64,000 nt of DNA, taken from NCBI RefSeq assembly GCF_002160495.1, contig NZ_NFKR01000013.1, forward strand, positions 1 through 64,000, read 5' to 3'. Positions within the stretch are counted from its first letter, which is position 1; every line of letters begins with the position of its first letter. Below, piece by piece: positions 51,212-53,538 of this stretch. The stretch is from Erysipelatoclostridium sp. An173 (lineage in GTDB: Bacteria > Bacillota_I > Bacilli_A > Erysipelotrichales > Coprobacillaceae). A program made the position numbers and the translations under genes. The notes under the pieces were generated by a model that saw only the letters and a list, made by a program, of their open reading frames with translations, did no database searches and had not been told where the DNA came from.

Positions 51212-51357
51212 ATTAGAAAATTTGAAAACTAGTAAAAATAGATTGTAAAGATAAAATATTTTAAAATAAACAACTATTTTTTTATTTTTTAAATAAATAC
51301 TTATTATTGGCTTTAGATTAATTATTATGATAAACTAGTCATATGTGAGGTGAAATA

Positions 51358-52149
51358 ATGAGCGCGCGTTATGTTGTAATGGATTTTGAAACTACCGGAA
51401 TCAATAAATATCATGATGATGAAGTAGTACAAGTAGCTATTATTAATCAAGATGATGAAATTTTATTACATGAGTTGTGTTGCCCTAAGCATCATTTTTC
51501 TTGGGTAGATGCTCAAAAAGTTCATGGGATTACACCAGCCATGGTAAAAAATAAAATGCCTTTTGAACATTATTTAGAACAGATTATTAGTATATTTGAA
51601 GATTATGATTTTATTGTTTGTTACAATATTGCTTTTGAAAAAGGAATGTTGGAAAATTATGGTATTGATGTTTCAAAATACCAGTTTCGTGATCCAATGA
51701 AAGAGTTTGCTCCAATTTATGGAGAAAAAAGTTATCGTGGTGGTTATAAATGGAAATCACTGACTGTTTGCGCTCAGTACTTTGGTTTTGAGTTTAAAGC
51801 ACATGATGCTTTAGAAGATGTAAAAGCTACTCGTTATTGTTTTGATAAGATTCAGGAATTAAAAAATCATAAAAAACAATTGCAAGAAGCAACAATTGAT
51901 AATTGGCAAAGTTTATTTAGAAAACAGATAATAAATAATGGACAACAAATATATGACAATAACAGTGTAGATATTATATATCAAGAAAAACAACAGATTG
52001 TAGCTAGTGTTAAAGGTAGTCAAGATTATTTAGTGTCAATTATTGTTGAACAGGGTAAAATAAAAAAGATGGCATGTAATTGTCCTTATGCAATGCGTGG
52101 TAATAAATGTAAGCATATGGCAGCTTTATTGATGAAAATCAATGAGTAG
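51358..52149 (+). CDS. DEDDh exonuclease fused to a SWIM zinc finger
   Basis: 263 aa. Residues 1-165 are a DnaQ-type 3'-5' exonuclease: Asp9 and Glu11 in MDFETTG, CYNIAFEKGML at motif II, and HDALEDVKAT at motif III. Motif II has Glu (FEK) where Asp is usual (NxxFD), a conservative change. After a linker, residues 225-263 hold a SWIM-type zinc finger (CNCPYAMRGNKCKHMAAL, the CxC...CxH pattern), known to bind DNA or protein. The fusion has no partner in a standard replication locus. GAGGTG before the start. Followed by a pRiA4b-like gene that overlaps its end. Confidence 0.82.
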   Translation: MSARYVVMDFETTGINKYHDDEVVQVAIINQDDEILLHELCCPKHHFSWVDAQKVHGITPAMVKNKMPFEHYLEQIISIFEDYDFIVCYNIAFEKGMLENYGIDVSKYQFRDPMKEFAPIYGEKSYRGGYKWKSLTVCAQYFGFEFKAHDALEDVKATRYCFDKIQELKNHKKQLQEATIDNWQSLFRKQIINNGQQIYDNNSVDIIYQEKQQIVASVKGSQDYLVSIIVEQGKIKKMACNCPYAMRGNKCKHMAALLMKINE

Positions 52150-52159
52150 TGGAGGAATT

Positions 52160-52984
52160 ATGGCAAATAAATATCGATTAAAAATTATATATAAAGATAT
52201 AAATGAAGTTTTTGATATTGAACAAGATAAATCATTTGAAGAACTAAGTGATATTATTAATACTATGGTGGGAATTAAAAAATATCACGATTATACTTTT
52301 TTAAAAGGAAAAACTGTATTAGCTGCCAATAACTTGGATACTCGTTTTTGGCAGCTGGCTGGAAATTTAAAATTAGAAGATAAATTATTATATACTGTTA
52401 GTGATAATAAGCGTATATATAGTATTAAAGTAATTGTTTGGGATTATATTATTGAATCAGATAATAAAACAATGGAAAAATTTATCCAGATGGCTAAGCA
52501 TTTAGAAGCAATCAAACCTAAACAAAAATATTATTTATCGGTAAAAAAACAGAATTTTATTGATAAAGCTTTATATGATTGCTATGGTGTCTTAAAGGAT
52601 TTGGATTTTAGTGGTATTTATAATTTTCATTTGTTGAAAAATAATGAAAATTATTCAGTTGTTAAGCTTATTTATTATATTTTAGATGATAAATACGAAT
52701 TATGGATTTATAATAATTTAGATGATAAAGAAAATGATGATTATGAGTATTTGATAACTTTTTACCGTGAGGATCGAGCTTATTTTAAAGGATATCAAGG
52801 CAGCCATCGTAATATTTTTGTCTTGCATCGTGATAATACTTTAAAAAATAGTGATTTTGAAAATGTATTTAATATTTTGAATCGAATTACATATATGTTA
52901 ACTACTGTTGATAGTGATATATTATTTAAAAATCATGAAAATTTTTTAGTATATGATTTTGTAACTGAACAAGTGCTAAAATAA
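52160..52984 (+). CDS. pRiA4b ORF-3-like domain protein
   Basis: 274 aa from ATG 52160 (GGAGG ahead). The first 60 residues (YRLKIIYKDINEVFDIEQDKSFEELSDIIN) have the strand pattern and FEELSDII helix of the plasmid pRiA4b ORF-3 family, whose role is unknown. The rest is charged, with no motif I know; IVWDYIIESDN and KLIYYILDDKYELWIYN look like beta strands. Directly downstream of the exonuclease-SWIM gene with 10 bases between, so they are probably one unit. Confidence 0.5.
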   Translation: MANKYRLKIIYKDINEVFDIEQDKSFEELSDIINTMVGIKKYHDYTFLKGKTVLAANNLDTRFWQLAGNLKLEDKLLYTVSDNKRIYSIKVIVWDYIIESDNKTMEKFIQMAKHLEAIKPKQKYYLSVKKQNFIDKALYDCYGVLKDLDFSGIYNFHLLKNNENYSVVKLIYYILDDKYELWIYNNLDDKENDDYEYLITFYREDRAYFKGYQGSHRNIFVLHRDNTLKNSDFENVFNILNRITYMLTTVDSDILFKNHENFLVYDFVTEQVLK

Positions 52985-53043: not shown

Positions 53044-53086
53044 AAATAAAGCTATTGGTAACTTTGCTTAACCAATAGCTTTATTT
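53044..53086. terminator. Bidirectional terminator
   Basis: 16-bp perfect stem AAATAAAGCTATTGGT / ACCAATAGCTTTATTT, 11-base loop, between the convergent pRiA4b-like gene and the PH-domain gene. Confidence 0.9.
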
Positions 53087-53467
53087 TTATAAATCAAAAT
53101 CATCTAAATCATCACTACTATCATCAAAGAATTCTTTGCCAACTACTTTTTTACGATCTCTAGCTTCTTCAACAAGATGTGAAATTAGATCTTTTACTTC
53201 TTTTGGATTTTTTACATTTTTTAATAAAACTTCTTTATCACTATCTGCTTTAGTAGATAAAACAATTGTACCAGTACCAAAGATTTTTTGTGCTAATGAT
53301 CTTTTAAGACATAGATCTGTGATTCGGTATAAAAGTAATTCATCATAGTGAGTATTAAAAAGACCGGTTTCTTGATATAAACGTTCATTTTTAATTTCAT
53401 ATTTAGTGAAACTAATTGGAAACCACATAAAATGTTTTCGATCTTTCCAAACAGTATTGTTATTCAT
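53087..53467 (-). CDS. Bacterial PH-domain protein (bPH2/YdbS-like)
   Basis: 126 aa from the ATG at 53467, with an AAAGGTGG site. PH-type core (WFPISFTKYEIKNERLYQETG, then LYRITDLCLKRSLAQKIFGTGTIVLST) as in YdbS/YdbT proteins, but no membrane helices. The C-terminus is acidic (FFDDSSDDLDDFDL). Function unknown. Confidence 0.75.
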   Translation of the reverse strand: MNNNTVWKDRKHFMWFPISFTKYEIKNERLYQETGLFNTHYDELLLYRITDLCLKRSLAQKIFGTGTIVLSTKADSDKEVLLKNVKNPKEVKDLISHLVEEARDRKKVVGKEFFDDSSDDLDDFDL

Positions 53468-53538
53468 AAAGTTCACCACCTTTATTTGCTTTTAAAAATT
53501 ATATCAATAATTTTGGTGTTTTAAAATAAAAAATTAAA

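Follow-up and report, generated by a model that had tools for sequence, protein, structure and literature searches.

A SWIM-bearing DnaQ-fold exonuclease and its β-grasp neighbour form a local gene pair in Thomasclavelia

Two adjacent genes of Erysipelatoclostridium sp. An173, one encoding a DnaQ-type exonuclease fused to a C-terminal SWIM module and the other a protein with an N-terminal β-grasp domain, are a real, genus-level local variation on familiar parts and not a widespread new system. Both lie on the + strand of the window (the whole 64,000-nucleotide stretch of DNA analysed, from contig NZ_NFKR01000013.1), at 51358-52149 (263 aa) and 52160-52984 (274 aa), with a gap of 10 bases; these coordinates, the reading frames and the length of the second protein agree with an earlier note made from the sequence alone. 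In the explanation favoured here, which is given a probability of about 0.5, an active SWIM-targeted two-metal 3'-5' exonuclease trims DNA 3' ends and is co-transcribed with a β-grasp protein that may be an accessory or adaptor.

The DnaQ-like exonuclease domain occupies 51373-51867 on the + strand (about residues 6-170). Residues 6-160 match Pfam RNase_T (PF00929) with an E value of 3e-16 and 60.8 bits against a cut-off of 24. Motif I is D9-x-E11, motif II contains E94 within YNIAFEKG, and motif III is H149...D154 (H-x4-D). All five catalytic positions are unchanged in the 8 orthologues compared (61-74% identity), and dN/dS values of 0.08-0.28 show that the exonuclease is under purifying selection. 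The AF2 model of the whole protein has a pLDDT of 84. Its first 170 residues gave VIA Z scores of about 18.7-20.1, with DinG at 20.1, DnaQ epsilon at 19.6 and PolC at 18.8; RNase T, ISG20 and 3'hExo were also among the structural matches. The exonucleases of DnaQ epsilon, PolC and DinG (PF00929) resemble the fusion in fold, motif I DxE, motif III HxxxxD and domain size, but the fusion carries Glu for Asp in motif II and a C-terminal SWIM module.

The Glu94 codon (51637-51639, + strand) aligns with an Asp of the PolC exonuclease 2p1j. This replacement, pointed out in the earlier note, is fixed in the genus (8/8 orthologues), so that the strict DEDDh signature with Asp in motif II is absent, whereas the nearest exonucleases outside the genus and the phage relatives have Asp. 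On these motifs the protein is counted in the DEDD superfamily, as a DnaQ-fold exonuclease whose motif II is variant, and not as a canonical DEDDh enzyme. The same residue is found in the DUF2779 nucleases (PF11074), in which motif II Glu occurs in all 10 of the proteins inspected, in the near-identical context YNxSFEKxVL (for example VAYNKSFEQGVL). Because Glu is the norm in that family, it is no sign of inactivity. The overall architecture of the DUF2779 nucleases differs, however, and the exonuclease scores 16.2 bits against their model, below the cut-off of 23.3. Since the other four catalytic residues are retained, the enzyme with Glu94 is expected to be active, although the D-to-E change could lower its activity; the nearest relatives have Asp.

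The SWIM module follows at 51877-52146 on the + strand (residues 174-263), with predicted zinc ligands C240, C242, C251 and H253. The Pfam SWIM model (PF04434) covers residues 226-261 with 19.9 bits, barely over its cut-off of 19.6. The ligands, C240-x-C242...C251-x-H253, are invariant in 8/8 orthologues; the fusion described in the earlier note therefore stands, and its C-terminal Cys pattern, the loss of which in relatives would have spoken against the note, is conserved. The SWIM part exceeds the finger itself: about 90 residues match the N-terminus of SWIM proteins of about 550 aa, which are common in the family, one of them being encoded in the same genome as the fusion. This SWIM family of Erysipelotrichia (PF04434; PADLOC PDC-S62) has the same module of about 90 residues, W..LF...I...G..YY ... 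CxCPYAxxGxxCKHMAA, but carries it N-terminally with a long region after it, whereas in the fusion the module is C-terminal to the nuclease. In other nucleic-acid enzymes, too, SWIM modules serve to bind nucleic acid or protein, and the module described here may likewise anchor the exonuclease to its substrate or to a protein partner.

At one locus (L045:3067-9542, G029:C121) genes of this family of about 550 aa stand consecutively, some of them split, as if tandem-amplified. At two others (L040, G000:C2:55000-63000, and L041, G004:C85) a 551-aa SWIM protein of the PADLOC PDC-S62 type is preceded by a 322-aa protein without a Pfam match, and in both of these genomes cas1 lies 10-12 kb away.

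The PDC models are those of defence candidates, and the SWIM module matches PDC-S62 with an E value of 3.4e-12 while the exonuclease matches PDC-S48. An anti-phage role for the pair nevertheless appears improbable: both matches are at the domain level and are also given by the other proteins of DnaQ or SWIM type that were compared, the partner has no PADLOC match, and the site is chromosomal with constant housekeeping genes downstream.

The same two domains are also joined in a single chain in another genus of the family. There, at L043:3569-4426 (G016:C57) and directly after the ATP-synthase genes, a 285-aa protein carries the SWIM part first and the DnaQ part second. Besides the opposite order, it differs from the Thomasclavelia fusion in its branch of exonucleases, in the Asp of its motif II and in having no partner gene. 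In the tree, the Thomasclavelia proteins make up a separate clade (support 1.0), while the exonuclease of the 285-aa protein is placed with an ordinary DnaQ protein (0.97). Thus, judging from these separate positions, the SWIM and DnaQ domains were most likely joined twice, independently. Independent fusions of this kind, occurring twice within one family, suggest a benefit of the SWIM module for 3'-end trimming, and the second fusion is a point in favour of the explanation preferred here.

The partner (52160-52984, + strand) is composed of two parts. Residues 1-99 (52160-52456, + strand) form an N-terminal β-grasp domain of the PRiA4_ORF3/MM3350 fold, predicted by AF2 with a pLDDT of about 74-90. 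This part of the model matches 2i1s (MM3350) with a VIA Z score of 11.7 over 98 residues at 2.2 Å, the next row being 7.2; 2i1s is also the sole PDB entry that a search with a true-PRiA4 profile found (E 3e-17). In hhalign, a profile of the true PRiA4 proteins of the genus aligned with partner residues 1-93 (P 2.5e-5). The PRiA4_ORF3 model of Pfam (PF07929), by comparison, gave an E value of 0.013 and 15.7 bits, under the cut-off of 26.6, and at E values up to 1 it matched just 4 of the 9 partner orthologues, in whose alignment the YDFGDxW of PRiA4_ORF3 is absent. The pRiA4b-like N-terminus claimed by the earlier note is thus right for the predicted fold and not for the family, because the 2i1s fold and the profile match are present but YDFGDxW is missing. 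The partner shares with the PRiA4_ORF3 family (PF07929; 2i1s MM3350) the β-grasp fold of its first 99 residues, and departs from it in its Pfam score, the missing motif and a different C-terminal domain.

This C-terminal domain (52457-52981, + strand; residues 100-274, 175 residues) has a core, FYxxxRAYFKGYQGxxRNIF, that is almost invariant in the 9 partner orthologues. It matched no known family, and no relative of it was found outside the genus. The comparison of the partner model with the PDB is dominated by residues 1-96, and the partner profile had no match among the sequences of solved structures.

Signals around the two genes are consistent with a common transcript. An extended -10-like element, TGATAAACT, lies at 51328-51336 (+ strand); in an alignment of upstream regions, TGrTAAACT or TGGTAGACT stands before the exonuclease in 8 genomes, while a simple promoter scan of the region found nothing above chance. 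A GAGGTG ribosome-binding site for the exonuclease (51347-51352, + strand) is kept in relatives, and a GGAGG for the partner lies at 52151-52155 (+ strand). An alternative partner start at 52142 would give a 280-aa version; the start at 52160 is preferred, because the orthologues align from this second Met and GGAGG precedes it. Downstream, a terminator hairpin at 53044-53086 (no strand assigned; 16-bp stem, -18.5 kcal/mol by folding) is common to the pair and a convergent PH-domain gene, and the gene preceding the pair ends in a hairpin of its own. With the conserved -10-like element, the closing hairpin and the hairpin of the preceding gene, the exonuclease and its partner therefore look like a two-gene transcription unit. 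The convergent gene, a bacterial PH-domain (bPH_2) gene on the - strand at 53087-53479 of the window, is a conserved neighbour of the pair across most of the genus.

The named relatives that have both genes belong mostly to Thomasclavelia. In 8 of 9 genomes of this genus the exonuclease and the partner are adjacent and in the same order, with a short junction in all 8, and in several of them an alternative partner start overlaps the exonuclease stop. Downstream, the PH-domain gene, a DEAD helicase and PPDK are mostly constant; upstream, the flank varies and may hold a cysteine desulfidase, a regulator, a CRISPR locus, a NUDIX gene or a transposase-like ORF. That order and coupled, short or overlapping junctions are kept despite these differing upstream flanks, and that the exonuclease was never observed without the partner, argue against mere co-transcribed neighbours with separate jobs, the β-grasp protein acting apart from the exonuclease. 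The remaining genome, G005, points the other way: in this complete, single-contig sequence the partner is intact, a CRISPR array ends immediately before it, and no trace of an exonuclease remnant was seen. Relaxed selection on this orphan partner was considered, since its rate ratio against the helicase gene seemed raised (4.5 vs 3.1), and was rejected, as the neighbouring PH-domain gene behaves likewise and diverges as fast. Taken with a SWIM-PRiA4 pairing that does not recur elsewhere among the matches listed, the partner of G005, not specially relaxed, leaves separate jobs a serious possibility, if somewhat below even odds. The two-part module proposed in the earlier note accordingly keeps its operon-like pairing in 8/9 genomes, but the partner of G005 without an exonuclease means that it is not obligate. 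For the favoured explanation too, the persistence of this partner and the restriction of the adjacency to one genus are points against.

CRISPR arrays abut the pair, or the lone partner, in 4/9 Thomasclavelia genomes (L048:4500-5700, L052:5700-6620, L053:7050-8030 and L055:6700-6880). In 3 of the 8 genomes with the exonuclease gene (G001, G002 and G007) the array is directly upstream of it, with cas4-cas1-cas2 at the site in G001 and G002, whereas the G007 contig ends within the array. Free-standing DEDDh enzymes are ancillary CRISPR components that in some systems help to capture spacers (PMC10284694), and the protein might serve CRISPR adaptation as an accessory exonuclease that trims prespacers for a neighbouring type I-B Cas1-Cas2 in some strains. 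This is very improbable. No CRISPR locus adjoins the pair in the window or in G003, G004, G006 and G008 (0.7 kb upstream being visible on the G003 contig), G008 keeps the pair without a cas1 hit, and G005 has a CRISPR locus without the exonuclease. Moreover, Cas4 is present at these loci, that of G005 included, while the trimming model concerns systems without Cas4. The PADLOC match 'DEDDh, CAS-associated' was discarded as CRISPR evidence for lack of specificity, since it gives higher scores for six further DnaQ-type proteins.

Searches for the partner beyond the genus gave no match in 395 genomes of the class, in phages, plasmids or viral contigs, or in 11.3 million genome contigs scanned by two peptide patterns. 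The earlier note had looked to recurrent adjacency in distant genomes as support for a module. When the positions of both families were compared across 240 genomes of the order, at least one SWIM-PRiA4 adjacency outside the genus appeared among the matches listed (L122:2700-4648, G016:C104), in which a SWIM gene precedes a PRiA4_ORF3 gene that is split over several frames. With this as the one further case listed, and its PRiA4 gene broken, the expected recurrence fails. The rarity of both parts, claimed by the earlier note, holds only in part: SWIM, DEDDh and PRiA4_ORF3 genes are each common in the order, and the rare element is the domain combination together with the C-terminal domain of the partner, not the single parts. 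An origin of the pair from a phage or plasmid was rejected, since the partner matches none of the phage, plasmid and viral collections, the viral contigs contained no confirmed exonuclease-SWIM relative, and the phage matches of the exonuclease are confined essentially to its nuclease domain. Among phage families, the exonuclease matches phrog_192 best (E 2.8e-39).

In the favoured explanation, the first gene would encode an active two-metal DEDDh 3'-5' exonuclease held in place by its SWIM zinc module, and the second a co-produced β-grasp protein of the PRiA4_ORF3 fold, possibly an accessory or adaptor, that can persist in the absence of the exonuclease. The likeliest job would be the trimming of DNA 3' ends in repair, or the clearing of foreign or damaged DNA; a role in DNA repair or surveillance, as the earlier note also suggested, is a guess. 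A point against the explanation is that DEDDh domains act on DNA as well as on RNA, with enzymes of both kinds among the nearest solved folds. The fold is common to RNase T, ISG20 and 3'hExo, all of them structural matches, and the protein could instead be an RNA-trimming enzyme (oligoribonuclease/RNase T/ISG20-like) whose SWIM module binds RNA or a ribonucleoprotein. This alternative seems doubtful, given that the top matches, by structure and by sequence, are the DNA enzymes DinG, DnaQ epsilon and PolC, and that mobile elements or phage contigs harbour some of the nearest sequence relatives. The substrate is more likely to be DNA, on indications rather than proof, because of these top matches, because nearest relatives of the exonuclease stand beside ParA/ParB genes in one case and a HIRAN gene in another, and because a bacterial SWIM protein falls within the Deinococcus DNA-damage regulon (PMC5552922). 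At the HIRAN locus (L062:647-2016, G210:C96) the HIRAN-domain gene directly precedes the gene of a DEDDh exonuclease that belongs to the same subfamily and has a hydrophobic, probably membrane-bound N-terminus, a neighbourhood hinting at a DNA-end function.

A closer association of the two proteins can also be proposed, in which the exonuclease-SWIM protein and the β-grasp partner form a genuine complex and the subunit of PRiA4_ORF3 fold acts as a switch or targeting factor for the nuclease; this proposal is tentative and rather unlikely. PRiA4_ORF3-like proteins are common, as are bacterial SWIM proteins. In the literature searched, no tested function of PRiA4_ORF3-like proteins was found. 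The two-gene unit places a β-grasp protein of this fold beside a defined enzyme and thus offers a simple biochemical test of an adaptor role. If the complex proved true, it would provide the first mechanistic role for PRiA4_ORF3-like domains, as nuclease adaptors.
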